A stretch of 64,000 nt of DNA from Terebella lapidaria (taxonomy: Eukaryota; Annelida; Polychaeta; Terebellida; Terebellidae). Of this stretch, positions 5,431 through 64,000 are shown one piece after another. Where the stretch lies: the NCBI GenBank assembly GCA_949152475.1, contig OX424564.1, positions 6,820,001 to 6,884,000 of the forward strand, written 5' to 3'. Within the stretch, counting starts at the first letter, position 1. Every line of letters begins with the position of its first letter. The notes under the pieces are model-generated. The model saw nothing but the letters and a program-made list of their open reading frames with translations, ran no database searches and had not been told where the DNA came from. A program made the translations under genes and the position numbers.

Positions 5431-5456
5431 TTTTGCATTTTCCCCTGCAGTGAAAC
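5431..5456 (+). promoter_or_regulatory. splice acceptor and 5'UTR start of the STEAP coding exon
   Basis: A pyrimidine-rich tract ends in TTTTCCCCTGCAG at 5450, a strong 3' splice site. Only TGAAAC separates it from the ATG at 5457. The TGA at 5451-5453 is in frame with that ATG and blocks any N-terminal extension from upstream exons, so the first exon or exons must be 5'UTR. The first exon was not located. Confidence 0.75.
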
Positions 5457-7055
5457 ATGGGCAAGCCGGAGAGACGTGTATCGGTGATGGGGACAGGCGA
5501 CTTTGGTTGTGCCATCACCAAAAGATTGATCCAGAATGGCTACAAGGTCACGGTGGGCAGTCGGAACCCCATGCAGCGTAACCTGGTGCGCAGGGACCCA
5601 GTACTAGCAGCAGCCGAAGTCACCACGACGCGAGAATGCATCTTAGCCGCTAATCTGATCATCGTCGCCATTCCGCACACGAAGATGGACCAGCTACGAG
5701 CGTATGGAGCAGAGCTAAAGGGCAAGGTGCTCGTGGACGTCAGTAACGCATCAAAGCGAGTCGCCAAGGACGAAAAGTCGAACGCCGAGCGCTTGGCCGA
5801 ACTGATCCCAGGGACCACCGTGGTGAAGGGTTTCAACACCGTCTCCGCCTACACGATGAGCTCCGACACTTCGAACGAACACCGACAAGTCTACGTCGCT
5901 AGTGACAGCGGTGCTGCCTTGGAAACCGTCATCCAGTTGTCGCGCGACTTGGGCTTCTCCGCACACAACGCAGGTCGGCTGCAGAAGTCCCGCGAACTGG
6001 AGGCTGAGCCTCTCTACCTGTTCCGTGGCTGGGGCTGGCCGACCATATTCACGGCTGGACTCTTCATTGCAGAGCTGCTCTACCTGTTTGTGGTCATGTA
6101 CATTTTGGTTGACAGGTATGACATCAGCCAAATCCCGTCTTATGTATTGTACAAAGCCAGTGGAGCGGTGAGCGTCAACCTCTTGGCCTTCTGCTACCTC
6201 CCCGGGATCCTTGCTGCCTTCGCACAACTCTACTATGGCTCTAAACACGTACGCTTCCAGAAGTGGTTGGACAGCTGGCTCCAGGGCCGCAAGCAGCTCG
6301 GAATCTACTCACTTATGTTCGCCTTCATCCACATGATCAGCGTGATGAGTTGCATGAACGGTGACTACTTTGATTACCTCTTCAAACATCAGCGCGTCAC
6401 GGTCCCAATCATCAACGCCACAGAAGATCCGGTGATCGAAGTAGACACGAAGATGAATCTCCACGGCGAAGGCTGCATTGCTTCCGGACTCATAGCCCTA
6501 GTGACGATGTCCATCATTGGGCTGACATCGGTCCCTGCCATCGGAGCCACAATGAACTGGCGAGAATGGCGATTCATCCAGTCCCAGTTCGGGTTCGTGT
6601 GCTTCCTGCTGACTGTCGGACATTGCATGGTGCATGGTGTCTCTCGCTGGATGGTCCAAAGAGACCTACCCTACAGGAACAGCTTCATGAGTCTCATACT
6701 GCCCTGGTTTACCCTACTCCTCAAAATCATCTACTTCATCCCCTGCGTGCACATTCCAGTGTGGCGGATCCGTCGCGGCTACGAGCGAGGCGTCAAGTAT
6801 GATACAGAAATGCAACTGGGAGAAGCGAGGACGACTTCCAACAAAGGAACTGACAACCCACTGTTCGGCTATGACAACGAGGCCTTCACCGGAGAAAACA
6901 AGAGCCAAGCAAGCGACAATAACGACTCCGGTATGAGCAATGGCTCAACATCTGGAGACAGCAGTGCGACCGACTCCATCGAATCCACCAGCGAAACATC
7001 CTCGCAAACAGCTGAAACTCGATCAACCGAGAACAGCGAAATCTCCCAACTGTGA
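5457..7055 (+). CDS. STEAP-family metalloreductase (532 aa, intronless CDS)
   Basis: Six-transmembrane ferric/cupric reductase of the STEAP2-4 type. In this family NADPH electrons pass via flavin to one membrane heme and then to Fe3+ or Cu2+ at endosomes or the plasma membrane. Residues 8-175 form the F420H2:NADP oxidoreductase-like Rossmann domain, with GTGDFG at 12-17 and SRNP at 35-38. Hydrophobic segments lie near 195-217, 235-260, 280-300, 340-362, 376-394 and 408-432. The two heme-ligand histidines match H292 (FAFIHM) and H389 (TVGHCM), the second preceded by NWREWRFIQSQFG as in vertebrate STEAPs. The start is fixed by an in-frame stop two codons upstream and a good context (AACATGG). 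Odd: an acidic Ser/Thr-rich tail of about 85 residues, longer than in mammalian STEAPs, containing NPLFGYDNEAF, which resembles an NPxY-like sorting signal. The whole CDS lies in one exon. Membership of the family is clear; orthology to one vertebrate STEAP is not. Confidence 0.95.
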   Translation: MGKPERRVSVMGTGDFGCAITKRLIQNGYKVTVGSRNPMQRNLVRRDPVLAAAEVTTTRECILAANLIIVAIPHTKMDQLRAYGAELKGKVLVDVSNASKRVAKDEKSNAERLAELIPGTTVVKGFNTVSAYTMSSDTSNEHRQVYVASDSGAALETVIQLSRDLGFSAHNAGRLQKSRELEAEPLYLFRGWGWPTIFTAGLFIAELLYLFVVMYILVDRYDISQIPSYVLYKASGAVSVNLLAFCYLPGILAAFAQLYYGSKHVRFQKWLDSWLQGRKQLGIYSLMFAFIHMISVMSCMNGDYFDYLFKHQRVTVPIINATEDPVIEVDTKMNLHGEGCIASGLIALVTMSIIGLTSVPAIGATMNWREWRFIQSQFGFVCFLLTVGHCMVHGVSRWMVQRDLPYRNSFMSLILPWFTLLLKIIYFIPCVHIPVWRIRRGYERGVKYDTEMQLGEARTTSNKGTDNPLFGYDNEAFTGENKSQASDNNDSGMSNGSTSGDSSATDSIESTSETSSQTAETRSTENSEISQL

Positions 7056-13266: not shown

Positions 13267-13854
13267 TTAAGGCCCAGTCACACTGACAATACGACCAAGA
13301 CACGACATTGATGCGACCTAAACTGTTTGTAATCGTGGATAAATCGTGACACGACATGTACGACTGGTCGTAGAGGTCGTGAGTGGTCGAGAACAAGAAA
13401 CTGGTCGCGGCAAGCTCGATGTTCAAAACTTCCAGCGTACGATCTCTGGTTGTACGTTGGTCTAGCACAATCGTGCCACCAGTCGGGAAAGGTGGCACCA
13501 CCAACCGGACATTGTCGCGCTTTATTGACTAGCCAAAATGGTCGTGCTACTAGTCGTACAACTTGGCGACTAATAGTGCAATCAGTCGTACAACTTTACG
13601 ATCAGTGGTAGTACGACCTCAAGATTGGTGGTACCACCCATTTAGAGCTTCACGGAACGAGGATAAATCATGTAGTGAACTTTACATGACACACCAACAT
13701 GTTAAACTATAATCAATTTCTATGCCTTAATATTTAATCACGCGATCAACCGTGCGTCTTATCCTACGACAGGTCGGTGATCGCCACGACTGAAGGTACG
13801 ACAGGTCGGTGGTCGCTGCTACTGGTCGTACGACTGCCTGTGATCAATCTTCTG

Positions 13855-14013: not shown

Positions 14014-16950
14014 GTATATAGTAAGAAAATGAAAAACAAAAATTAGGTGATAAAATGTTCGACAAACAGGTGAGTTTTAAGCTTAGATTTAAAAGTGTTC
14101 AAATTTGGTGAAAATCGGATGTCACTTGGCAGGAGGTTCCACAGTGCAGGTCCCGCAATACTAAAAGCACGACTTTGTGCGCAGGATGACCGAGTGTGTG
14201 GAACGACGAGTTGCCCTTGATCTGACGAACGAAGGCTACGAGTGGGTACATAAGGTTGGACGAGTTCCTGGAGGTACACAGGAGCAGACTTGTTGACGAC
14301 CTTGTAAATGAGAACTAACGTCTTGAACTTGACACGTTGCTCTATTGGAAGTCAATGGAGTGACATCAATATGGGTGTGATGTGGTCCGACTTTGAAGAC
14401 CCTGTGATGATTCTAGCAGCAATATTCTGTATTCGCTGCAGGCGATTGAGTTGTGTTGACGGCAATCCACACAGCAAAGAATTGCAGAAGTCCACTTTTG
14501 ACGTGATAAACGCGTGGACTAGCTGTTCAAAGGACGGACGATCAATCAATTTCTTGATTTTCGCAAGATTGCGAATTTGGATGCACGCACTCCGACATAC
14601 AGAAGATATGTGACTGTCCAAGTTCATGTGGGCGTCGAATATAACTCCAATGTTCCTTGCAGCTGACGACGCTTCCACAGATAATTCACCCACAGATAGT
14701 GATGGTACACCCAGCTTGGTAGACGCATGCTTAGACGAGATTAACAAAAACTCAGTTTTGTCACTGTTCATTTTCAAACTGTGCTGTGCCATCCATGACT
14801 GCACCATCTTTACACAGTTTTCCATCTTCCGAACCGCATCATCTAATTCACTGGGCCGGAATGTCAGATACATTTGGGTATCATCTGCGTACATGTGGTA
14901 GTTGATCCCCATGTTCCGCAGCAGATGACCAAGTGATTGGGTGTATAGCGTAAACAGCATAGGCCCAAGAATAGAGCCCTGGGGCACTCCACAGTTCAGA
15001 GGTACTCCATCTGATTTGACACCCTTTATGGATACACTTTGAGTGCGAGAAGCAAGATACGATGAGAACCATTGAAGAACATCTCCCTGGATCCCCAGCT
15101 GCTGCAATGTGGTCAACAGACACTGATGGTCAACAGTGTCAAACGCAGCCGAGAGATCCAGGAGAACAAGCAGCACTGCACGTCGATCGCCCAGAGCACG
15201 GATGACGTCATTGTGGACCCTAACAAGGGCAGTTTCTGTGCTATGGCCCTGCCTGTAGGCTGATTGATATGGTTCCAGTAGATTGTTATCCATCAGGTAA
15301 GCACCAACCTGCTTGGATACGACTTTTTCAAGCACTTTGGAAATGAAGGACAGGTTAGAGATGGGACGGTAGTTCTTGAATGTATTGTGATCGAGCGACG
15401 ATTTTTTCAGTAGTGGAGTTACTAGTGCGGTTTTCAAACTCGAGGGAAAAATCCCTGTTTTGAGAGATGTGTTGATGATGACCGAGAGTATCGGGATGAG
15501 TTCGTCAATGCAACCTTTCACAAAAGATGTTGGAATGGGGTCCAATTCGCAGGTCTTATTCGAACAGGCCAAAATCAAACGCTTCAAATCCTCATCCTCA
15601 ATCGGTTTGAAGTCAGCGAGAGAAGAGGTGATGACTGGAATCTCGACATCCAGGATTTCATCACCAGGTACTATGGACATCTTAATGGTGTTGATTTTTT
15701 CAATGAAGAAATCGCCAAACATGCCAGCCAATTCAGGTATGTCATGGGCTGGGAGTGGTGATTTCTTATCCTTGCCAAGCAATGAATTAACGACATGAAA
15801 CAACTGCTTTGTGTTGCCGTTACTCTCGCTGATGAAGGATTTGTAGTGGTCAGCCTTAGCATGGTCGACCATGTTGTTAACGGCAGCTCGTTCAGCCATG
15901 AAGATATCACGGTGGACGTGGAGCTTTGTCCTGCGCCAAAGTCTTTCAGCCTGTCTGCGCTTTTGTTTGGCCCTCCTGATATCCTCGTTGTACCAGGGAG
16001 CCTCAGGTCGCACAGTTACGGTGCGAGTTTTCAAGGGAGCCAGATCATCAACAATGGAACGCATCTTGGTGTTGTATTCCTCAATCATAGCATCCATGCT
16101 TGAGACGTCGTCTGATATGGAGGTCATGGATTCAACGATGGCCGCCTTCAGCGCAGTTGGCGCCACTGACTTCAGCTTTCTGTAGCTAATCACCTTTTGC
16201 GGATGCTTGGGCTTTGCCGTAGATAGATGTACGAAAACTGGATAGTGATCTGGGAAGCCATGATCCACTGAATCTGTAGACATCAGAGCTAACTCGTGTG
16301 CCCTGGTGAGCACAAGGTCAAGTGTGTGCCCAGACCGATGGGTCGAGTCTGTGACATTTTGTTGAAGGCCCACTGATGAGACTAGATCCAAGAACGCTGA
16401 TGCATCTCGGTCACTGGGGTTATCCACATGGATATTGAAGTCGCCCATGACGACCAGTAGTCCAGGACTTATGGATAGCGTTTCCAGGTATTCCGAGAAC
16501 TCCGAAAGGAATTGTCTGGTGGTGTATCCGTTCTTTTTGGACGGGGGAGGCCTGTAGACCAGAGATACCCGGATTGTTTGTTCTGTATGTAACAGACACT
16601 CAAGAACTTCGAAGGAAGCGGGATGTGACGAACCAGTGACTTTTACTAGGTGAATGCTGTCTCTGTAGATGAAAGCAGTTCCACCACCTCTAGTTTGGCG
16701 AGCATATTGACTCATGCTGTATCCATTTGGCAATACGGCACTGATTGTCACATTATCCATTTCGTTGCCACTGAGCCATGTTTCAGTCAGTGCCAATACG
16801 TCCAGCTTTTGGTCGATTATAAACTGGTGGATACTGGTAGTCTTATTGCATATGGACCACGGATTGAGTGCACATATTTTCAGTTTATTGACAAGTGATG
16901 TCTTGATGTGGTCATCATCAGCATACACTGACGATACACTGACGGTATTC
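13855..16950 (-). mobile_element. LINE retrotransposon, CR1/L2 group, 5'-truncated, inserted in copy A
   Basis: About 3.1 kb in reverse orientation. Its 3' end is a TTA-type trinucleotide run (13855-13896 on +) preceded by a conserved end resembling GGATTTTACGCTATACAAAATAA, like the 3' ends of L2-type elements. A 29-base A run on + lies in its 3'UTR near 13981. The 5' end lies just before the endonuclease domain, so any ORF1 and 5'UTR are missing. The insertion point is inferred by comparing the flanks with copy B; target-site duplications are too short to be sure of. Confidence 0.85.
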
Positions 16951-16967
16951 TTTCTGTGATCGTGCAA
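14043..16967 (-). pseudogene. LINE ORF2 (endonuclease plus reverse transcriptase), one stop codon
   Basis: One continuous frame of about 975 codons. The N-terminal apurinic-type endonuclease shows NPWSI, LTETWL, GGGTAFIYRD, MGDFNIH, HTLDLVL and DHYPVF. The reverse transcriptase follows, with NYRPISNLS, AYRQGHSTETAL, LLDLSAAFDTVDH, GVPQGSILGP and the catalytic YADD. The C-terminal region has the usual SRAFSIAGPALWNLLP block. A single TGA at 14352-14354, after MSLH, replaces the Trp (TGG) expected in LHWLP; the frame is open on both sides. The leftmost codons derive from the flanking transposon, and no proper ATG precedes the endonuclease. Otherwise it is near-intact, hence a fairly young insertion. 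Confidence 0.9.
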
Positions 16968-17270: not shown

Positions 17271-18160
17271 CAAGGCCCAGTCACACTGACGATACGACCA
17301 AGATACGACCTTGCTGCGACCTATTTTTTTTAGAATCGTGGACAAATCGTGACACGAACGTACGACTGGTCGTACAGGTCGTGAATGGTCGCAAACAAGA
17401 AAGTAGTCGCAGCAAGGTCGATGGACATGTTCGAAACTTCAAACCTACGATCTCTGGTCGCACGTTGGTCTTGCACAATCGTGCCATTAGTCGGGAAAGG
17501 TAGCACCACCAATCGGACATTGTCGCACGTTATTGACCAGCCAATATGGTCGTGCTACTAGTCGTACAACCTGACGACTAGTGGTGCAATCAGTCGTGCA
17601 ACTTCATGATCAGTGGTGCGATTAATCACGACCTGTGCCGACTGGTAGTACGACCTCACGATTGGTGGTGCCACCCATTTGAAGCTTCCCGAAAGGAGGA
17701 TAAAACGTGCAGTGAAAAATATTTTACCCATCACAACAAAATTTCTCAGCATTTTATCTAAACTATAAAACTGCAAAATATGGTTTCTGTTCAATTTTTG
17801 TGCCCTTCTGTCTAATCAGACGGACGGTCGTGCGTCAGGTCGCGATTTATCGTACGACTGGTCATTGATTGCAACGACTGGTTGTACGACAGGTCGGTGA
17901 TCACTACGACTGAAGGTACGACAGGTCGGTGGTCGCTACGACTGAAGGTACGACAGGTCGGTGGTCGCTACGACTGAAGGCACGACAGGTCGGTGGTCGC
18001 TGTCACGTGGTCGTACGACTGCTTGCTATCAACCTTTTCCATTCTTTCAATGATCGCGCCACCAAGCGTACCACCAATCGTGTGATCAGTCGTAACTCAG
18101 CAAAATTGAACCTGATCGTGCGACCATAAAATCGTACGACTCAGTGTGACTGGGCCTTAA
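17271..18160. mobile_element. non-autonomous TTAA-type DNA transposon, copy B (about 890 bp)
   Basis: The left end reads AAGGCCCAGTCACACTGACG and the right end TCAGTGTGACTGGGCCTTAA, an inverted repeat of at least 16 bp ending at TTAA on the right. The interior matches the two halves of copy A. At 17882-18005 it carries four direct 32-bp units (AAGGTACGACAGGTCGGTGG and on), of which copy A has fewer. There is no coding capacity. Confidence 0.8.
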
Positions 18161-21514: not shown

Positions 21515-22245
21515 TCCGTGCCACTTTCATATTGATTTTGATTTGTGGTGATTTTCCATCAAAGTGGACCCCAATGAGATGAGAAAAAACTGTTTCCATT
21601 TTTTTCGCCCATTGGTTGTGTGAAAATCCAAGATGGCCGCCAATTATCACCAAAAATCGGAAAATCACCATATCTTTGGCCCTAATTGGCATAGAGGGAT
21701 TGATTTGGGGTCGTTTTATATATTTCCAGACACAAGGAATTAAAACTAAACCATTGTTTTCATTCTATCGCCCATGGATTGTGTGAAAATCCAAGATGGC
21801 TGCCAATTATCACCAAAAAATCGAAAAATTACTATATCTTTGGCCCTAATTGGCATAGAAGGATTGAATTGGGGTCGTTTCATATATTTCCAGGAACAAG
21901 GAATTAAAACTAAACCATTGTTTTCATTCTTTCGCCCATTGATTGTGTGAAAATCCAAGATGGCTGCCAATTATCACAAAAAATCGAAAAATCACTATAT
22001 CCCTGGCTCTAATTGGAATAGAAACATGGAATTGGGGTAGTTTTATATGCACAAGGAATCAAAACCAATTTTTTCCATTTCTTTTCTTGCCCACTGGTCA
22101 TGTGAAAACCCAAGATGGCCGCGAATTATCACCAAAAATCGAATCATCACCAATGGCATATCTTTTGCCTTAATTGATATGAAAACATCAAATTGGGGTC
22201 GTTTTATATGTTTTCGGACACAAACAATCATTTAAAACCATTGCT
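21515..22245. repeat. tandem repeat, about four units of 156-163 bp
   Basis: The block containing GTGTGAAAATCCAAGATGGC starts at about 21607, 21770, 21933 and 22089. Each is followed by CCAATTATCACCAAAAATCG, ATATCTTTGGCCCTAATTGG and GGGGTCGTTTTATAT. The units are 85-95% alike by eye. A related piece lies in the opposite orientation at about 24880-25110. Confidence 0.85.
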
Positions 22246-25515: not shown

Positions 25516-28500
25516 TCACGAGCGTTTCCCCTCGTCTGGGTAAGTTTCCCGGATGGGGGTTGTTGTGAACATGACAACATGTCTCTTGTAGTACAGACTC
25601 TGTTTGTAACCCCCGTGTGTTCCGTGGAACCAGTCCAGCAATCCTAATTCACTGCCAAAGTTGTAGTGAAACCTGTCAAATAAGCAATGGCCACACCTAT
25701 AACAAATTATACAGGCCCTACAAAAATTAATACAGAGTCTGGGAACGTAAGTAGTACATACATATATGACTAAACCACAACAATGTTTGTTATTGAGATT
25801 AATATGAAATAGTCAACATCAAAAACTATTCACCTGTGATGGTGGTACAGGTGGTACTCACTTGTGATGGTGGTACAGGTGGTACTCACTTGTGATGGTG
25901 GTACAGGTGGTACTCACTTGTGGTGGTGGTACAGGTGGTACTCATTTGTGATGGTGGTACAGGTGGTACTTACTTGTGATGGTGGTACAGGTGGTACTCA
26001 CTTGTGATGATGGTACAGGTGGTACTCACTTGTGGTGGTGGTACAGGTGGTACTCACTTGTGATGGTGGTACAGGTGGTACTTACTTGTGATGGTGGTAC
26101 AGGTGGTACTCACTTGTGATGTTGGTACAGGTAGTACTCACTTGTGATCGTGGTACAGGTGGTACTCACTTGTGATGGTGGAACAGGTGGTACTCACTTG
26201 TGGTGGTGGTACAGGTGGTACTCACTTGTGATGGTGGTACAGGTGGTACTTACTTGTGATGGTGGTACAGGTGGTACTCACTTGTGATGGTGGTACAGGT
26301 GGTACTCACTTGTGATGGTGGTACAGGTGGTACTCACTTGTGGTGGTGGTACAGGTGGTAGACTCACTTGTGATGGTGGTACAGGTGGTACTCACTTGTG
26401 ATGGTGGCACAAGTGGTACTCACTTGTGATGGTGGTACAAGTGGTACCACTTGTGATGGTGGTACAGGTGGTACTCACTTGTGATGGTGCACAGGTGGTA
26501 CTCACCTGTGATGATGGTACAGGTGGTACTCACTTGTGATGGTGGTACAGGTGGTAACACTTGTGATGGTGGTACAGGTGGTACTCACTTGTGATGGTGC
26601 ACAGGTGGTACTCACTTGTGATGGTGGTACAGGTGGTACCACTTGTGATGGTGCACAGGTGGTACTCACTTGTGATGTTGGTACAGGTGGTACCACTTGT
26701 GATGGTGCACAGGTGGTACTCACTTGTGATGGTGGTACAGGTGGTACTTACTTGTGATGGTGGTACAGGTGGTACTCACTTGTGATGGTGGTACAGGTGG
26801 TACTCACTTGCGGTGGTGGTACAGGTGGTACTCACTTGTGGTGGTGGTACAGGTGGTACTCATTTGTGATGGTGGTACAGGTGGTACTTACTTGTGATGG
26901 TGGTACAGGTGGTACTCACTTGTGATGATGGTACAGGTGGTACTCACTTGTGGTGGTGGTACAGGTGGTACTCACTTGTGATGGTGGTACAGGTGGTACT
27001 TACTTGTGATGGTGGTACAGGTGGTACTCACTTGTGATGTTGATACAGGTAGTACTCACTTGTGATCGTGGTACAGGTGGTACTCACTTGTGATGGTGGA
27101 ACAGGTGGTACTCACTTGTGGTGGTGGTACAGGTGGTACTCACTTGTGATGGTGGTACAGGTGGTACTTACTTGTGATGGTGGTACAGGTGGTACTTACT
27201 TGTGATGGTGGTACAGGTGGTACTCACTTGTGGTGATGGTACAGGTGGTACTCACTTGTGGTGGTGGTACAGGTGGTACTCACTTGTGGTGATGGTACAG
27301 GTGGTACTCACTTGTGGTGGTGGTACAGGTGGTCCTCACTTGTGATGGTGGCACAGGTGGTACTCACTTGTGATGGTGGCACAGGTGGTACTCACTTGTG
27401 ATGGTGGTACAGGTGGTACTCACTTGTGATGGTGGCACAGGTGGTACTGACTTGTGATGGTGGCACAGGTGGTACTCACTTGTGATGGTGGCACAGGTGG
27501 TACTCACTTGTGATGGTGGTACAGGTGGTACTCACTTGTGATGTTGACATGTGGTACACACATGGGATGGTGGTACAGGTGGTACTCACTTGTGATTGTG
27601 GTACAGGTGGTACTTACTTGTGATGGTGGTACAGGTGGTACTCACTTGTGATGTTGGTACAGGTAGTACTCACTTGTGATGGTGGTACAGGTGGTACTCA
27701 CTTGTGATGGTGGAACAGGTGGTACTCACTTGTGGTGGTGGTACAGGTGGTACTCACTTGTGATGGTGGTACAGGTGGTACTTACTTGTGATTGTGGTAC
27801 AGGTGGTACGCACTTGTGATGGTGGTACAGGTGGTACTCACTTGTGGTGATGGTACAGGTGGTACTCACTTGTGGTGGTGGTACAGGTGGTACTCACTTG
27901 TGGTGATGGTACAGGTGGTACTCACTTGTGTCGGTGGTACAGGTGGTACTCACTTGTGATGGTGGCACAGGTGGTACTCACTTGTGATGGTGGCACAGGT
28001 GGTACTCACTTGTGATGGTGGCACAGGTGGTACTCACTTGTGATGGTGGCACAGGTGCTACTAACTTGTGATGGTGGCACAGGTGGTACTCACTTGTGAT
28101 GGTGGTACAGGTGGTACTCACTTGTGATGGTGGTACATGTGGTACACACATGGGATGGTGGTACAGGTGGTACTTTATGGTGGCACAGGTGGTACTCACT
28201 TGTGATGATGGTACAGGTGGTACTTACTTGTGATGGTGGTACAGGTGGTACTCACTTGTGATGGTGGTACAGGTGGTACTCACTTGTGATGGTGGTACAG
28301 GTGGTACTCACTTGTGATGGTGGTACAGGTGGTACTCACTTGTGATGGTGGTACAGGTGGTACTCACTTGTGATGGTGGTACAGGTGGTACTTACTTGTG
28401 ATGGTGGTACAGGTGGTACTCACTTGTGATGGTGGTACAGGTGGTACTCACTTGTGATGGTGGTACAGGTGGTACTCACTTGTGATGGTGGTACAGGTGG

Positions 28501-30127
28501 TACTCACTTGTGATGGTGGTACAGGTGGTACGCACTTGTGATGGTGGTACAGGTGGTACTCACTTGTGATGGTGGTACAGGTGGTACTCACTTGTGATGG
28601 TGGTACAGGTGGTACTCACTTGTGATGGTGGTACAGGTGGTACTCACTTGTGATGGTGGTACAGGTGGTACTCACTTGTGATGGTGGTACAGGTGGTACT
28701 CACTTGTGATGGTGGTACAGGTGGTACTCTGGGGAGGTGCTGAAGGGGAGGTGGTAGTCGCTGTGTCCGATCACAGTTTGCATCATCCCCAACACATACC
28801 TGCAAGTAAATGTTCAGTTGGTACAAAATTAAAGACACCAAATACATGGTAGTCCTCCTCAAAATAATTAAAATGAACTACAATAAAGAAAAGACTTTTT
28901 CGGGTAAGACCTGGATTTTACGTAGGTAGGACAGATCTTATCTAAGCGGGAGGCAATGTGCTCGATTTAGGTGAAGTTCTGATTACCAAATCCACATGGT
29001 GAGGACGTGGGAGCCGGCAAGGGTGGTGCCACAGATCAGGGTCGGAGTATTGACGAATATATTCTCCAGGGGATGGGCATAGAAAGAGGCCAGTCCCACG
29101 GGAGCGATCCAGGAATGGTGCTGCTTGTGGAAGCGTTTGTACAGAGGCGGATAGTGCATCAGTCTGTGCGTGTAGTAGAAGACGATTTCGTTCGCCACCA
29201 CACCGACGGCGAAGTCCCCCAGGATGCGCCAAGGTGTGGGGAGGTCCCGCGGGTGAGCAGATGACCCCCGCCACTGGGCCAGTGGGTACACCAAGGCCAT
29301 CATAGGGAACGTGACCAAGAAGTGGTTCTTGGCGACCACACGCACCGCGTCCCACAGACGTGCAGGATCCAACTAAATACGTTGTGGAAAGTAATGCGAT
29401 AATTATGAAGGGGATGTCGTTCAATATAAATGTATAGTATTGTATATAGCATTCTTTTGGTGGCAAATTAGACTCGAGGTGTAGAGATTTACAACCGCCA
29501 CGGGTGTTTGGCGATAAAGTTAGTTATGTTGCTATTGCGATAACAACATTTTCATAAGATGGTATCTGATACTGATCAAGACTGGTGAGGACTGGACATT
29601 TGCAATTTGCTGTTTATTGACTCCTGACATTTTACTTACCGGTTGGTTGACTCCTGGAGTCATTTTGTACCTCAGCATCCAGGCCGGTTTCCCAGTCAGA
29701 TCCACGACCATAAACATGCCGGATACGGCCCAGAACACAATCGTTATCACTATTGGCGACCCTAGTTTCCAAAATGATTTAATTGATTATTAAAAGGTGC
29801 AGATATAAGCCGGTGTCACTTCTTTATCAGCCATGAATTGCTGACGAAATGTGAAAGTTCTATTCATTTCTATCTGTGAATCAAACTTTCAAGACTAATT
29901 ATTACGTTACACTAATTAGATACCTTACATTAGATATTTACATTATTATCAAAGACATATTTATGATACTATAGTATTATTATGCGTAATAATGTACATA
30001 CGGTGTGCATTAATATGTACATTAATATGCAGATAATGCACATACCTATCGAATACATGGCCCAGTCGTTCTCCCGGAACACGTCATGATATAGCCAGGT
30101 CCAGTAATACTCCAAATTCGAGGGCAT
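25516..30127 (-). CDS. FAXDC2-like fatty-acid/sterol hydroxylase, gene A (280 aa, 5 exons)
   Basis: Membrane di-iron hydroxylase of the fatty acid hydroxylase superfamily, ER type; the nearest relative I recognise is FAXDC2. CDS exons on -: 30127-30046, 29761-29640, 29372-28987, 28799-28704, 25672-25516, all GT-AG. Phases join without a break (82+122+386+96+157 = 843 nt). The protein starts MPSNLEYYWTWLYHDVF. Histidine boxes are HRLMH, HKQHH and the third cluster EYHLYHHH, followed by LLDWFHGTH. Hydrophobic stretches: VITIVFWAVSGMFMVV, FLVTFPMMALVYPL, the segment before YYTHRLMH, and LICGTTLAG to IWYVLGMM. Exons 2 and 4 are exactly as long as in gene B; the 386-nt exon 3 equals B exons 3+4. 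Odd: exon 4 ends inside the 2.9-kb minisatellite that fills intron 4, and the Asp of the HDxHH motif is Leu (HLYHH). The ATG matches gene B, but an upstream exon cannot be excluded. Intact as read. Confidence 0.88.
25831..28726. repeat. 28-bp minisatellite, about 103 copies, built from exon 4's end and splice donor
   Basis: Continuous 2.9-kb array with + unit TTGTGATGGTGG-TACAGGTGGTACTCAC (28 bp). In the gene's orientation (-) each unit reads GTGAGTACCACCTG, then TACCACCATCACAA: a 5' splice site followed by the codons for YHLYHHHK that end exon 4 of FAXDC2-like gene A. The exon ends at 28704, inside the outermost unit; the rest is intron. Variants (GTGGTGG, GATGATGG, GTGCACAGG, ACTTACTTG) recur in the same order about 920 bp apart, e.g. 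near 26117 and 27036. The 5'-most units (28200-28726) are nearly identical, the lower-coordinate ones more varied. Confidence 0.95.
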
Positions 30128-33574: not shown

Positions 33575-35797
33575 CTAGTCGGGATATCGCTCCCTTGCCG
33601 GTGTGAGACTGAACAGAATCCTGTTCCTTATCGCCGCCTTGTGCCGTTTAAACTTCACATCCGTGCCGTGAAACCAGTCCAACAAACCCACGCCCGTTCC
33701 GTAGTTCACGTTAAACCTGGACAAGAAGTTGATTATAATCATTGTCGTACACTGTTGAATTGTAGTCAGTATCGTCTTTTAATACCTCTAACCCTACAGT
33801 GATACATACATTGATTAAAGAAACACAATCCCTATCTCTTCATTGACACGTATGTTGGGTAACATGATTTATACTAGGGATAAGAACTAGGGATGTCGTT
33901 GTGGATAACATGTTGATTGGTGTTATGCCATGATGTCATCATACTCACTCTTTATGGTGGAAGTCGTGTCTCTCGGGGGATATAACAAACGGGAGGTGGT
34001 AGTTACTGTGTGTGATAACCGTCACTGTCAGACCGATAGTGTACCTGCAAATGATGGCACAAACGTTTGCATACTACACATCGTTGTATCGTGGAAGACT
34101 TCAGTCTTCACTCCGATTCAGGCACATTCCCAAACGTTAAAACTGTAGTTTTACAACTTGATACCGGCAAACAAACGAATCCATTCTCCAATACCAAATA
34201 TGAAATAGACAATAAATATGTATATGTTTTGGCAAAAGAAATGTCTTTGGTATTGGTATCATACTAATCACAACGGATTTAATCGAGCAAGTCACTAGTC
34301 CCTACCATATCCATGTTGTAAAGATGTGAGAGCCCATGAGCGTGGTTCCCATGGTGAACGGGAGGAGGTTACAGACAAGGTGCTCCAGGGGGTGGGCGTA
34401 CACGGAGACAACCCCGATAGGCGCCGTCCACTCGTGGTGCTGCTTGTGTACTCGACGGTACAGAGGACCCCAGTGTGCCAGTCTGAGGACAAACAGGAAT
34501 AGATCTAATGTCACTGCATGAATTTCTGTACCCCTCAAATCTTACTAACCTAATATTTCAACACTAACATCTGGTCTGGCCGTCCCACTTTAATTATCCT
34601 TTAAAAAACCTTCAATTAATTTACAACAATTGCTGAACAAGCATCAGCTTATACTAACATCTCTTACCTATCTCTTAATCAGAGAACCTGGTGAAATCCC
34701 ACTTGCACGGTTTTGCGACCACATACCATTTCATCCTATCTCCGGGGACCAAATCCTCGCCTCAACCGACTGCGTTGGTGATAAGTCAGCCCACATACTA
34801 ACTGAACTAACCCCCCCCCCCCCTACTGACCTGTGAGTGTAGTAGAACCCGGCCTCTTGTATGGCCACGATGACGACCAGATCCTTCAGCATTCTCCAGC
34901 CCGAGGGGATGTGTTCCGGCCGCACAGAGCCCCCCATAGCCGTCCACAGAGGGTACAACCCTAGCAAGAGCGGCATGCTGATCAGGGTGTGGTTAAACAG
35001 CGCCACCTTCAAGGCGCGTCTCAGCTTCACTGGGTCAACCTTGTCAGGGTAAATATTATTCCATTTTAATTGGTATTGATTGCCAATCGTAAAATCGAAT
35101 ATTGTTTTGTTCACATTTTTCCCTGAATTGACCGTGTAAACAAATTGTTCAAAATACTTTGTTCAATTTGATTTGACAATTTGTATGCATATGAAAAGTT
35201 CTCATTTTGAAGAAAACATTTTATAACCCGTCCACGTGTCATTTTTTGTGTATGAGCTGTACCGGTTGGTTTGTGCCGGGCTGTACTTTGTATTTGAGTG
35301 CCCAGGCCGGTTTTCCAGTGACATCAGGAATCATAAACAGACCACACAGGCCCCAAAACACGACATTAGTCAACGTCAAGGTTCCTGAAATGCAACCCAT
35401 AGTTCAACGGCAGTATGTAACTGCTATAGATAAAGCAGGTAAATCCACAACAAGTTCTAAATGCATTCGGCCAATGGACACAGATTTACTAGTTCATGCA
35501 CTGTACTTTTGGCGTAATAGTATTGACTATTCTGATCTCTGATCTGGACTATTTTCGCTTCTTTTCTAAAAATTTATTAAATGTCGACATATTAAAACAT
35601 CAAAATGTCGCCATACTGAAATATGTTGATGAATTACAATCATGCATATCTACAGTCCCTATAAATGTTACCTTTTGAGTGCCTTTACTTGAAAGTCAAC
35701 AATGCATAATTGTCTCACCGATAGCGTAGAATTTGAAGTCATCCTCTTGGAAAACATCACGGTACAAATACGACCAAAAACCCTGCAAACCTGACAT
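33575..35797 (-). CDS. FAXDC2-like fatty-acid/sterol hydroxylase, gene B (274 aa, 6 exons)
   Basis: Second member of the family in the same orientation, about 3.4 kb upstream of gene A. CDS exons on -: 35797-35719, 35384-35263, 35039-34831, 34482-34306, 34044-33949, 33716-33575, all GT-AG (79+122+209+177+96+142 = 825 nt). The protein starts MSGLQGFWSYLYRDVFQEDD. Histidine boxes are HRLAH, HKQHH and the canonical HDFHH, followed by LLDWFHGTD, and it ends ARERYPD. The exon-4 donor reads AAAGA then GTGAGT, at exactly the position where gene A's donor was amplified. Intron 3 (34830-34483) interrupts the YTHR codons between the FYY and HRLAH motifs and is missing from gene A. Intron 3 also holds a C run. 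As in gene A, an additional 5' exon cannot be excluded. Substrate unknown; mammalian FAXDC2 has been linked to sterol C4-methyl oxidation. Confidence 0.9.
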
Positions 35798-46455: not shown

Positions 46456-48550
46456 CTACAAGATATCACAGCACTGAGAGGTGACTGTTTTGAGTCCCTT
46501 GTCCCAGTCCGGGTCTGATGAGAGCCGTATTTCAGTGTTCTTGCGATCTATCAACTTGACGTGGTACGTAAGTTCCTGGGGATCCCCGAACTCTGCAGTC
46601 AGCAGGGCAAAATTTGGTTCCTTCGTCCAGTCGAAATGTTTGTACGTGTAGTCCCCATAGCTATCCACAAAATTCATAATTCCTCGCAGGGCTTTGAAAG
46701 ATGACAGTTTGACGTTTCTGTTGTTGATTGCACTGGAAGTAATCTGGTGGCAGATAAGTAAGTCTTGGCCAGGTCTCTTCTTGTAGATATCAGTGAAGCC
46801 TCCGATGTGGATATCCCCAGCGAACATCACCACGTCACCCTTGGGACCCATTTCCTCTTTAAACTTCTCAATTGCTTCCAAGATTGGCTCGATTTCCGAC
46901 CCGTGGTTGTTGTTGATGAATTCCGTGACGTCATCATTGGCCCCGCCCATTTTGCCGGCGATTTCTATGATTTTTCGCTTGAGGAAGAACATTGGCATCG
47001 GGTAAGTCATCACACAGAACCTGGTCTTTCCGTCTGGCTTCAGGTTGCTAAGGATAGCGTCATACTGGTCCTTGCCATAGTAACTGTCGTCCCCGGGGGG
47101 TCTACGCCTCCTGTAAATGGCTCGCGTCATCCGGGAATCCACCATCATGATCTTAAGCGGCCCGATCTGTATTTCGTAGAACTCGCTCGTCAGTTTGTCT
47201 GCCTTTTGGAAGACGTCCGGATCCCAGAGCTGTCTCTGGTACTCGTGGTACGTCTGGAGCCCGATGGATCCAAGGAAATATTCCTTGCTCTCCGGATCAG
47301 AGTCCAGAGGTGAAAAGCCGAAATCGTCCCGGATATCGTGGTCGTCAAGGATCATCAGGTTAGAGAAGTTGGCCAGGACTTTTGCCTTCCCCGGGCCCGA
47401 GAACACCTCCCTGGAGGTGAGACGTACTTTCATGTAGGCGAAAAGTGGGTAAAGGTGGAAATATTTCATGTTTTTGACACATATATCTGGCAGAGAGAAT
47501 TTTACATCTTGAAAAAAAATGCTGCTTCAATGTTGATTTCAATGTTGTTCTACATAGACTTTGAAACAAAAGATGTCAATGACAAAATGAAAGAGGACAA
47601 TTGGTAAAGGTATTACACATCAAGACATCAAACCTGTATCTGCCCCGGTAGATCTGCAGTATTTTCTCCCGTTTGGCCCCCCACTCCTCCTTGGGCAGTC
47701 CGGCCAGCAATCTCCGGGCGCTGATGTACGGGTTAGGGCGCTTCACCTGGTTACGATATCACAAGCGTTATCCATAGAACTATCGATATGGAATTTATAG
47801 TTGAACGGATTTACTGAAGCAAGAATGAAAACCGGTGAGGGTCTATGAAAATTGCATATTGTGCCAATACATGTACATGTGTATATGGCAAGAGAATTGG
47901 TGTATATATACCGGTAATCCATACCATTGTATTATACCAATTCTCCAGCAGGAATCAATTTTGTTTGTCGGTGTTTATTTTTGGAACAAACATTCTTGAA
48001 TCAATACAAGAAATATGTCTACTAGGCATTACTAGTACCTTCAATCTCATAATGTATATAAATTTGTAAAGTGTACCTTGTCGAGGTGATCATCACTGTT
48101 AACAAGTTGTGGTGTAGAGTGGTCGGCGAATGCCTCCCCGTCCATGTACACATTGTCCCCTATGTGGAGGACGACATGGGTATCGTCTTGTATTGCCCGC
48201 TCGTAGAAATACTCCCATGTGTCTACCTTACTACTCTCCGGCCGGTCACAGCTCGCCACGCCCACCCCGACCGTCGTGACGTCATCCGGAAACGTCCGAA
48301 CTCTCCCGAGTACCGCATTCCGCGTCAGACTTGGCACTGTTATGTTGTATGTCGCGTTGCTTTCGAGGGATTTGAAGAGGAACATCCCAGGGACTTTGCC
48401 GGACAGATCCACCGTGACTTTTGAGGTGTCGTTGGTGGTCGTGTTTTTCAGACAGATTTCTACCGAGGATGAATCGCTGATTTCCAAGAGCATATTAGCC
48501 GAGCTGTTGGTGACCAAACCCACAACTGGCCCACAAATTATCTTCGCCAT
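46456..48550 (-). CDS. PhoD-like metallophosphatase, gene D (513 aa, 3 exons)
   Basis: Phosphodiesterase/alkaline phosphatase D-type enzyme. CDS exons on -: 48550-48077, 47746-47634, 47410-46456 (474+113+955 = 1542 nt), GT-AG, phases agree. Residues 1-90: N-terminal beta-sandwich domain of PhoD proteins (IICGPVVGLV to YNITV). Then the catalytic domain with GVASCDRP (Cys that binds Fe3+ in Bacillus PhoD), LHIGDNVYMDG (Asp and Tyr ligands), NFSNLMILDDHDIRDDFG and FAGDIHIGGFTD. No signal peptide: the N-terminus is MAKIICGPVV, in line with an intracellular enzyme. It ends QCCDIL, a possible CaaX prenylation box. ATG at 48550 is chosen because homologues E and F start at the same place; no upstream ATG is in frame. 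Neither intron is shared with genes E/F. Substrate unknown. Confidence 0.92.
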
Positions 48551-50770: not shown

Positions 50771-53474
50771 CTACATAATTGTACAACAAGTGGAGGTGAC
50801 GATCTGCGTGCCTTCGTCCCAGTCTGTCTCGGACGAGTGCCTGATCTCTGTGGCTTGGCTGTTCACAAGCTGCAGTGTGTACTCGACTCTCTCTGGATCT
50901 GCGAAGTCGACTGAGAGGAGCGTGAAGTTTTGCTGCTTGGTCCAATCATAGTGTTTGTAGGAGTAGTCCTCGAACGTATCCACAAAGTTCATGGCGGCCC
51001 GGAGGCCAGTGAAGCCGGCGAGTGAGGTGTTGTAGTTGTTGATGGCGCTCGTGGTCACTTGGCGACAGATGAGCTTGTCTCTCCCGTCTCTCTTCTTCAG
51101 GATATCCGTGAAGCCAGCGATGTGTATATCTCCGGATAGCATGAGCACGTCTGCTCTGTCGCCATTCTCACTCTGAAACATCTCCACCGCGTTTAGAATG
51201 GGCTCTATCTCGGTTGGATGATGAGCATTGATCAACTCAGTGATATCGTCGTATTTGCTCTCACACTGACTCACAAGTTGGATGATTTTTCTCTGGAGGA
51301 AGAACATCGGCATGGTAAAGACGAGGAGACACATCCTGGTCTCTTCATCGGGGGCCAAGCTCTTTTGTATGCAGTCACACTGTTCCTTGCCATAGTAGGA
51401 CTCGTCAGTTTTGTCTCTCCTGTGTTTGTATGAACTTCGAGATGTTCTGGAGTCACTCATCACAATCTTCAGGGGACCAAACTGCAAGTCATAATACTCG
51501 CTGCTCAGTTTGTTGGTGTGTTGGAAAACTGCAGGGTCCCACAGTTGTCGCTGATACTCGTGGTACACTTGTATGGCTAGCGATGCGAGGAAATACTCGA
51601 GGCTGTCCGGATCTGAATCCTCGGGCATCATCCCGAAATCATCCCGGATTTCATGGTCATTCAAGATCATCAGATTGCTGAAGTTAGCCAACACTTTGGC
51701 CTTGTGTTTTCCCGTAAACACCGACCTATACTTTTTCCGATAGATATTCAAGATATCCTGTTTCCTTGCGTGCCAATCATCTTTTGGTACCCCCTTCAGG
51801 AGCTTTCGTGCCTTTATATACGCAACTTTCTGATCAACCTTCTTAGGATTAAATGCAGTGTCATCATTCCTGACAATTTCTTCAGTCGAATGTTGATAGA
51901 AACTCGTTCCATCGATGTACACATTGTCTCCTATATGCAGAACAAGGTGTATGTCTTCACTGCTGGCTTTCTTGTAGAAAACCGGCCAGAAGTCCTTCTT
52001 AGCGATATCTGGTTGGTCACAACTAACCACGCCCAACCCTATTGACTGGATCACTGCTGGAAAGGTCCTCACTCGCCCCAGCACCTTCCGACCTACAAAT
52101 ACAGAGTAATGTAGATCAACGTTTATCATATTGGGCCTAATGCTAAACTATGATATTTCTAACTCCTTCACACAGTGTATGCTGATATTTTTGCGATGCT
52201 AAATGGTATCATTGTATAACTCGGTATACCTTACCTGGGAACCAATCGGCAATTATGTACAGAATTTCAGATACTATCGCAAACATTGAAGAAGGCAATC
52301 TACCCAATGTTGAATTTCGCCCTGTCATTTAATTTCTGGGCCCGCACACGATTTTTTGTTTGCATTTGCTCGGTTTTGTAGTGGTGCAATCTTTCAAAAT
52401 CAACAAGTTTGTGTAGAATACACCTTGATGTGTCTTCTGGTCCAAAATTTCAATAATACTTTGAATCCTGATGGATATAAACAGGAATATGAGATTCTCG
52501 AGATCAGATTCTCGAGATCCCATTTTGGGGTGAATTTTAATATTGTGGTACATTGCCAACTTCTTCAATTTTTGCGACAGAAGTCTGAAATTTGGTAGAA
52601 AATTGCCGATTAACTACCAGATGGAGTGTGCCAAGTTATATAACGATAACGTTTAGCATCGCAAGAATATGGTAAAACAAATCCGGTATGAACTCTACAC
52701 AGTAAAAATTGTATAAGGCATATGGCCAATATTATAACATACAACGTATTCATCGCTGTGATGCAGTAATGTGTAAGACACGTGATGTCTTCCAGTTGAG
52801 ATGACATACTAGTTCTATATCATATTCCAAAACAATGGGGTACATAATATCGGAAGTTACATTATTATTTGAGTCTTTCTGTATGTAGAACCGACTGCCA
52901 TATATGGTTATACTAATGTCTAAAAATTATTCAAGCATGGCTAAAATGAATCAATATTCATAGGAGCTGATCGGCGCTGACCAGTAAAGTGACCAAAACA
53001 CTGACATCGCTACACATGATTGATTTATCCTGAAGATGGTGTGACATGCATGGTTATGCATATATATATATAGAAAATATATATGGTTATACTAATGTCC
53101 AAAAATTTATCAAGCATAACTAAAATGAATCAATTCATAGGAGCTGATCGGCGCTGACCAATAAAGTGACCAAAACACTGACTTCGCTACACATATATCC
53201 CAAAGAGGGTTGAAATGCGAGAACATATGACCTCCTTACCTGAAATATCTGGTACTGTTATGTGGTAAGTACTGTTGGTATCCAGGCCTGAGAATAGGAA
53301 CATTCCGGGTATTTTTCCCATCAGTTTGACCGTGACACGGACAGTTCGGTCCGTAGAGGAGTGTTTGAGGCACATCTCCACCGACACTGAATCGTTTACT
53401 TCCAGTAAAACATTCGCCGAGTCGGTGGAGACCAAACCAACGACTGGTCCGCAAATTATCCTCAGTGAATTCAT
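50771..53474 (-). CDS. PhoD-like metallophosphatase, gene E (518 aa, 2 exons)
   Basis: Same family as gene D, about half identical to it. CDS exons on -: 53474-53240 and 52092-50771 (235+1322 = 1557 nt), with the intron in the ISG/RKV codons between the N-terminal and catalytic domains. MNSLRIICGPVVGLV starts the protein, with no signal peptide. Catalytic motifs: VSCDQPD, LHIGDNVYIDG and LSGDIHIAGFTD. Odd: the conserved DDH motif reads ILNDHEIRDDFG, Asn (AAT) replacing the first Asp found in D (DDHD) and F (DDHE). The C-terminus is TSTCCTIM, a farnesylation-type CaaX box. The intron carries two copies of an approximately 100-bp segment. Frame intact; whether the Asn affects activity cannot be told from sequence. 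Confidence 0.92.
52900..53200. repeat. tandem duplication in the intron of gene E
   Basis: GGTTATACTAATGTC, then AAAATGAATCAAT, CATAGGAGCTGATCGGCGCTG, GTGACCAAAACACTGAC and TCGCTACACAT, occurs at about 52907 and again at about 53083 (period about 176 bp). Gene F's intron has one copy (about 63660-63770), so the duplication followed the E/F split or one copy was lost from F. Confidence 0.8.
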
Positions 53475-62182: not shown

Positions 62183-64000
62183 CTACAGAATTGTACAACA
62201 AGTGGAGGTGACGATCTGCATCCCTTCGTCCCAGTCTGTCTCGGACGAGTGCCTGATCTCTGTGGCTTGGCTGTTCACAAGCTGCAGTTTGTACTCGACT
62301 CTCTCTGGATCTCCGAAGTTGACTGAAAGGAGCGTGAAGTTTTGCTCCTTGGTCCAATCATAGTGCTTGTAGGAGTAGTCCCCGAACGTATCCACAAAGT
62401 TCATGACGGCCCGGAGGCCACAGAAGCCGGCGAGTGAGGTGTTGTAGTTGTTGATGGCGCTCGTGGTCACCTGGCGACAGATGAGGTTGTCTCTGCCGTC
62501 TCTCTTCTTCAGGATGTCCGTGAAGCCAGCGATGTGTATATCTCCGGATAGCATGAGCACGTCTGCTCTGTCGCCATTTTCACTCTGAAACCTCTCCACT
62601 GCATTTAGAATGGGCTCTATCGCGGTTGAATGATGAGCGTTGATCAACTCAGTGATATCGTCGAATTTGCTTTCACACTGAGTCGTAAGTTGGATGATTT
62701 TTCTCTGAAGGAAGAACATCGGCATGGTGAAGACGAGGAGACACATCCTGGTCTCTTCATCAGGGGCTAGGCTCTTTTGTATGCAGTCACACTGTTCTTT
62801 GCCATAGTAGGACTCGTCAGTTTGTTCTCTCCTGTGTTTGTAGAAACTTCGAGATGTTCTGCAGTCACACATCACAATCTTCAGGGGTCCAAACTGCAAG
62901 TCATAATACTCGCTGGTCAGTTGATCGGTGTGTTGGAACACTGCAGGGTCCCACAGTTGTCGCTGGTACTCGTGGTACACTTGTATGGCTTGCGATGCGA
63001 GGAAATACTCGAGGCTGTCCGGATCTGAATCCTCGGGCATCATCCCGAAATCATCCCGGATTTCGTGGTCATCCAGGATCATTAGATTGCTGAAGTTAGC
63101 CAACACTTTGGCCTTGTGTTTTCTCGTAAACACCGACCTATACTTTTCCCGATAGATCTTCAAGATATCCTGTTTCTTTGAGTGCCAGTCATCTTTTGGT
63201 ACCCCCTTTAGGAGCTTTCGTGCCTTAATATAGGCAACTTTCTGGTCAACCTTCTCAGGGTTGAACGCAGTTTCATCGTTCCTGACAATTTCTTCAGTCG
63301 AATGTTCAAAGAAACTCGTTCCATCGATGTACACATTGTCTCCTATATGCAGAACAAGGTGTATGTCTTCACTGAGGGCTTTCTTGTAGAAAACCGGCCA
63401 GAAGTCCTTCTTAGCAATATCTGGTTGGTCACAACTAAGCACGCCCAATCCTATTGACTGGATCACTGCTGGGAAGGTCCTCACTTGTCCCAGCACCTTC
63501 CGACCTACAAATACAGAGGAATGTAAAGTACTGTGTAAGACATATGATGTCTTCCAGTAGAGACGGCCTACTACTTCTATAAACTATTCTTAAAAAATGG
63601 GGTACGTAATATCGGAAAATACATATTATTTCTGCATGAACCGACTTGCCATGTATGGAAATACTAATGTCCAAAAAGTTAATCAAGCATGGCTAAAATG
63701 AATCAATATTCATAGGAGCTGATCGGCGCTGACCAGTCAAGTGACCAAAACACTGACATCGCTACACATGATTGGTTCATCCTGAAGCGAGTGTGAAATG
63801 CATGTCGGGTCTTCATGGAACGACTAAACCAATTTGCAATAGTCGCCGGTACCTCATGAACATATGACCTCCTTACCTGAAATATCTGGTACTGTTATGT
63901 GGTAAGTACTGTTGGTATCCAGGCCTGAGAATAGGAACATTCCGGGTACTTTTCCCATCAGTTTGACCGTGACACGGACAGTTCGGTCCGTAGAGGAGTG
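62183..64000 (-). CDS. PhoD-like metallophosphatase, gene F (5' part beyond the window)
   Basis: Near-identical twin of gene E. Exon 2 spans 63504-62183 (1322 nt, the same length as in E). Exon 1 enters from the window edge and ends at the donor at 63877 (...YHITVPDISG then GTAAGG). The visible protein has the end of the N-terminal beta-sandwich domain and the whole catalytic domain: LSCDQPD, LHIGDNVYIDG, ILDDHEIRDDFG (canonical DDH, unlike E) and LSGDIHIAGFTD. The C-terminus is TSTCCTIL, a CaaX box of the geranylgeranyl type. Frame open throughout. The start codon lies outside the window. Confidence 0.92.

Follow-up and report, generated by a model that had tools for sequence, protein, structure and literature searches.

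Within intron 4 of a gene of the fatty-acid-hydroxylase superfamily, we found a minisatellite of 28-bp units that starts inside the coding sequence. The array includes the end of the gene's own exon 4 and its donor, as the original prediction for this DNA had claimed and as TRF and cyclic alignment agreed. It is probably a "mirage" minisatellite in which the first donor is mostly used and the other copies are near-neutral passengers.

Gene models and anatomy of the array

The minus strand of the window (the whole 64,000-nucleotide stretch of DNA that was analysed) carries two adjacent fatty-acid-hydroxylase superfamily genes, A and B. Their models were set by eye using splice signals, reading frame, and A/B comparison, and are predictions from sequence only. 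Every intron in both models starts with GT and ends with AG. The features of the two genes and of the array, all on the minus strand, were as follows:

25516-30127 (-): gene A, fatty-acid-hydroxylase family, 5 exons, 280 aa (GT/AG at 4 introns, open frame, PF04116)
30127-30046, 29761-29640, 29372-28987, 28799-28704, and 25672-25516 (-): exons 1 to 5 of gene A (splice signals and paralogue B)
28704-28799 (-): exon 4, 96 nt, ending ...EYHLYHHH(K), with the HxxHH box HLYHH at residues 223-227 (gene model)
28704-28731 (-): unit 0, the exonic copy, equal to the last 28 nt of exon 4; 26 of 28 positions identical to the consensus (cyclic alignment)
25834-28703 (-): 103 intronic 28-bp units, each beginning at a donor position, a few with small indels; 36 of the 103 equal the consensus (TRF, alignment)
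25673-25833 (-): rest of intron 4, 161 nt, with its own donor CAG/GTGAAT and acceptor; likely the pre-expansion intron (sequence)
25516-25672 (-): exon 5, the final coding exon; matches paralogue B at 22 of 46 aligned residues (gene model and A/B alignment)
33575-35797 (-): paralogue B, 6 exons, 274 aa (splice signals, frame, A/B comparison)
33948-33717 (-): ordinary intron of paralogue B at the place matching intron 4 of gene A, 232 nt (gene model)

When PF04116 was queried with protein A only, the full profile was covered by residues 122-247 (E = 1.6e-22) at a score of 80.7 bits, above the curated cut-off of 31. The histidine boxes HRLMH (137), HKQHH (150), and HLYHH (223) were also located, so that protein A shows both the domain score and the boxes of the fatty acid hydroxylase superfamily; its subfamily may be FAXDC2. 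Protein A matched 0 NCBIfam families, and a sequence comparison with solved structures gave two rows whose E values (0.33 and 0.42) are not meaningful. No relatives were found among the viral contigs searched, and one scan of genome contigs returned 73 pattern matches with 0 confirmed.

Proteins A and B have the same residue at 137 of 274 aligned positions; the pairwise dN is 0.46, and dS, at 2.42, is too high to be reliable. The exon of B that matches exon 4 of A (34044-33949) was found, as predicted, to be an ordinary 96-nt exon with a GTGAGT donor (ending AGA/GTGAGT) at the same codon phase. Together with the frame into exon 5, it backs the predicted boundary of exon 4, which is in phase 2, at 28704/28703. 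Exons 3 and 4 of B (209 and 177 nt; 34830-34483, minus strand) correspond to the single exon 3 of A (386 nt), and in the predicted models this is an intron gain or loss between the neighboring paralogues, inside the first histidine box. A possible exon 2 remnant of a third paralogue (MLRYK...GQNQ) was spotted by eye at 31930-31860 (minus strand) and was absent from the tblastn matches at E 0.05.

TRF reported one array over this part of gene A (25830-28729, period 28, 104.1 copies, 93% matches, score 5026). Cyclic alignment to the unit resolved it into 1 exonic and 103 intronic units, which together span 28731-25834 (minus strand) and are followed by a 104th donor at 25833; the array edges are unique sequence. 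Unit 0 codes for residues 221-229 (EYHLYHHHK) and departs from the array consensus at its first two bases only. Intron 4 as a whole measures 3031 nt (28703-25673). Removal of the array leaves 161 nt, which start with the donor CAG/GTGAAT, end in TTTGACAG, and fit the size of the other introns of gene A (187-284 nt) and of the matching B intron. Exact matches between this remainder and the B intron did not exceed 9 nt. A protein-coding role for the array was rejected: each of the six frames contains 29-36 stops, and the longest open stretch is 81 codons.

Elsewhere in the window, two other tandem arrays, at 1532-2020 and 21605-22048 (23 bp x 22 and 164 bp x 2.7), were tied to no gene model made. 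A non-LTR retrotransposon, possibly a young one, lies at 14352-16967 (minus strand); its 871-aa open frame has domains for an endonuclease and a reverse transcriptase, and 32-bp tandem repeats flank it at 13765-13834 and 17852-18001. Three consecutive open frames that match PhoD-like phosphatases were located at 46456-47526, 50771-52147, and 62183-63583 (minus strand); by eye, the second and third are very similar. An intronless 533-aa open frame at 5454-7055 (plus strand) has F420_oxidored and Ferric_reduct domains and resembles a STEAP metalloreductase. As for RNA genes, Rfam yielded nothing in the window at the gathering threshold, and ARAGORN (run with the bacterial code) predicted no tRNA.

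Donor copies and their predicted products

Among the 104 donor positions, GT is present at 101, GTRAGT at 89, and the exact CAA/GTGAGT at 76; the rest of the window has 33 occurrences of GTRAGT when both strands are counted, or 0.27 per kb of each strand. About 103 near-perfect donors had been predicted behind the true one. Most of these stand (100 with GT, 88 with GTRAGT, and 75 identical to donor 1), so the predicted count was slightly high.

Only donor 1 keeps the frame and yields the 280-aa protein. All 103 later donors would give one identical 229-aa protein, whose last residues are HHHK and whose stop codon, a TGA, is complete at nucleotide 4 of the intron. The prediction that any later donor shortens the protein therefore holds in every case, with a single product in place of a series of isoforms. 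A TGA in the exon frame had also been expected in each unit; as 28 equals 1 modulo 3, it falls in only about every third unit, and the first one suffices.

Transcripts are commonly subject to nonsense-mediated decay (NMD) when the stop lies further than 50-55 nt before the last junction. The TGA lies 24, 52, and 80 nt upstream of the junction for donors 2, 3, and 4, respectively. Since it lies more than 55 nt upstream of the last junction for donors 4-104 (101 of the 103 later donors), their products are candidates for NMD, and spliced products of later donors would mostly be removed under this limit.

Calculated pairing energies with U1 set one copy apart:

26500-26508 (-): donor 80, CAG/GTGAGT, with +1 at 26505; best U1 pairing of the copies (pairing energy)

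Donor 80 reached -13.6 kcal/mol, donor 104 (CAG/GTGAAT) -8.4 kcal/mol, and donor 1 -7.1 kcal/mol. With 74 of the other 103 donors equal to donor 1 (-7.1 kcal/mol), 27 weaker, and 2 stronger, donor strength was rejected as a ground for the use of donor 1. Masking of the later donors by structure was likewise rejected, as donor 1 ranked 100 of 104 in predicted accessibility. The predicted fold of the exon 4 end plus three units had only a slight advantage over shuffled sequences (z = -1.84), of which 6 of 200 did as well or better. In these models, neither U1 pairing nor accessibility puts donor 1 at a visible advantage; it would be favored by the normal-sized exon and by being made first. We infer a preference for donor 1 because transcription reaches it before the others and because its use gives an exon of ordinary length (96 nt), which later donors would only extend. 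The 161-nt intron that starts at the last donor would suit intron definition. A search of a limited open-access library for work on the choice among several identical 5′ splice sites gave nothing usable.

A second repeat over a donor of gene A was observed at the end of exon 2. The exon end and donor (29656-29628, minus strand) recur 30 nt downstream in intron 2 (29626-29597), with the first 10 nt exact and a local alignment score of 13 (p = 0.0034 from 5,000 mononucleotide shuffles at one boundary; nine donors were examined). This pair may be a degenerate two-copy mirage; it was not listed by TRF at score 30.

Growth of the array and competing explanations

We propose a tandem duplication of 28 bp that reached from the last part of exon 4 into its 5′ splice site. 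Unequal exchange or slippage, together with the copying of whole blocks, would then have raised the number of intronic copies to 103 and enlarged intron 4 from about 161 nt to 3031 nt. Two parts of the array bear on this history:

28228-28703 (-): units 1-17, of which 15 equal the consensus; this part is probably the youngest (unit alignment)
26836-27171 (-): units 56-67, a 336-bp block with a copy at 26253-25918 (units 89-100), 335 of 336 identical

Units 1-17 contain 2 differences and the other 86 units 108, and none of 20,000 permutations gave so low a value. The cut at unit 17 was picked post hoc; a scan over all 17-unit stretches gave 0 of 5,000. Unit number and differences showed a correlation of 0.07, hence no simple gradient along the array. 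The two copies of the 12-unit block differ at 1 of 336 positions, against a mean of 19 and a minimum of 9 in 5,000 shuffled unit orders. An alignment of units 20-40 with units 41-62, a pair compared without a null, gave 572 identities, 13 mismatches, and 29 gap positions. Autocorrelation of exact units put lags 33 and 22 first, with a best value that merely equalled the highest of 300 shuffles; the evidence for duplication is therefore taken from the block alignment. The near-pure units on the exon side and the copy of the 12-unit block are ordinary minisatellite turnover.

The original prediction had named a short direct repeat across the splice site as the seed of slippage. This argument is circular, as the intronic GTGAGTACCACC is already unit 1; the repeat between unit 0 and unit 1 is a product of duplication and thus cannot by itself show the seed of the array. 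A GTGAGTA donor is plausible as the ancestral state because B has the donor GTGAGTAT and the array closes, at its far end, with the donor GTGAATAG. From these sequences we infer that the ancestor may have had the 5-nt GAGTA in common between the donor and the exon 28 nt upstream.

The leading explanation, in which the spliceosome would mostly take the first donor and the remaining copies would be near-neutral passengers, was weighed against the state of the gene and of the copies. Exon 5, which lies beyond the array, is identical to B at 22 of 46 residues, compared with 115 of 228 for exons 1-4 combined, and in this alignment it shows no excess decay. This conservation, together with the intact acceptor and frame, suggests that donor 1 is still in use; the argument may be weakened if the array arose too recently for decay to be visible. 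Array-driven change of the coding sequence of gene A was also considered and rejected: the residues of unit 0 are identical to B at 4 of 9 positions, like the 137 of 274 overall, which gives no sign of it. The 9 donor positions of the unit carry 3.78 variants per position and the other 19 positions 3.89, with no difference by permutation. The donor positions are thus as variable as the rest of the unit, and selection is not visible on them, either to keep or to purge donors.

The same variability bears on an unlikely alternative, in which the extra donors compete with donor 1, copy number and strong copies such as donor 80 tune the output of gene A, and one and the same truncated, NMD-prone transcript results whenever a later donor wins. 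The 88 later donors that fit GTRAGT, the fact that all 103 are unproductive in one way, and the two that outpair donor 1 with U1 are consistent with such tuning. However, the donor positions are kept no better than the rest of the unit, and published mirages are reported not to disturb splicing (PMC3087553, PMC3902484). Its more specific form, a length-dependent splicing dimmer with about 100 donors of which the first alone is productive, so that the allelic repeat number would set the enzyme level, is in our estimate very unlikely. It is quite unlikely that gene A is failing, as a hypomorph or dying duplicate covered by B, with a later donor winning (donor 80, or the last, which gives the 161-nt intron). 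Donors 80 and 104 do outpair donor 1 with U1, splicing from the last donor would produce a normal-sized intron, and a paralogue adjoins, but the frame is open, the GT/AG sites are intact, and the conservation of exon 5 is close to that of exons 1-4.

Some 100 near-identical units are hard to assemble, and the copy number could in part be an assembly artefact, with a true array that is longer or shorter. The ordered pattern of unit variants and block copies and the unique sequence at both edges argue against this explanation, which is highly improbable.

Relation to known mirages

Ordinary intronic minisatellites (VNTRs) have a short unit, block duplications, and uneven homogeneity, all of which are seen here. 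Unlike in those arrays, the unit consists of the gene's own exon end and donor, so each new copy adds a possible competing splice site. The array is thus a natural test of 5′ splice-site choice, with about 90 near-identical sites of which one choice gives the whole protein, and the possible winners (the first made, the strongest, which is donor 80, or the intron-proximal one) can be distinguished in long cDNA reads.

In amphioxus, tandem repeats across exon-intron boundaries were described as "mirages" in Adh3 and in the globins BflGb6 and BflGb9 (PMC3087553). The Adh3 data and globin RT-PCR are reported to suggest that regular splicing is unaffected, with the remark that cryptic sites could yield aberrant transcripts (PMC3087553); PGBD5 was added as a mirage, and troponin C and Adh were cited as being without aberrant mRNAs (PMC3902484). 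Such repeats were also proposed to feed intron evolution (PMC3087553), a proposal for which the present array offers a large case. If the host is not a cephalochordate, the array would extend mirages beyond that group. Searches of a limited open-access library, which cannot prove absence, brought up no similar arrays beyond those in the amphioxus papers.

Both structural features that define mirages were observed. The unit runs across the exon-intron boundary, with unit 0 forming the end of exon 4 and unit 1 starting at the donor, and splice signals recur in many copies beside the authentic site (GT in 101 and GTRAGT in 89 of 104), as in the boundary-spanning repeats of amphioxus. The array is a real, extreme case of a described phenomenon. 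Its 28-bp unit falls within the 10-72 bp given for the Adh3 mirage (Canestro 2002, as cited in PMC3087553), and the array, like that of BflGb9, has the donor side duplicated (PMC3087553). The array is known from its DNA, unlike the published mirages that come with splicing data. It also differs from BflGb6, which has 6 and 3 units in two haplotypes (PMC3087553), compared with 103 intronic copies here; the copies far exceed those of the amphioxus globin mirages compared. In BflGb6, the cluster boundary was left outside homogenization, a trait of one example (PMC3087553), whereas in gene A the highest purity is found in the 17 units next to the exon.
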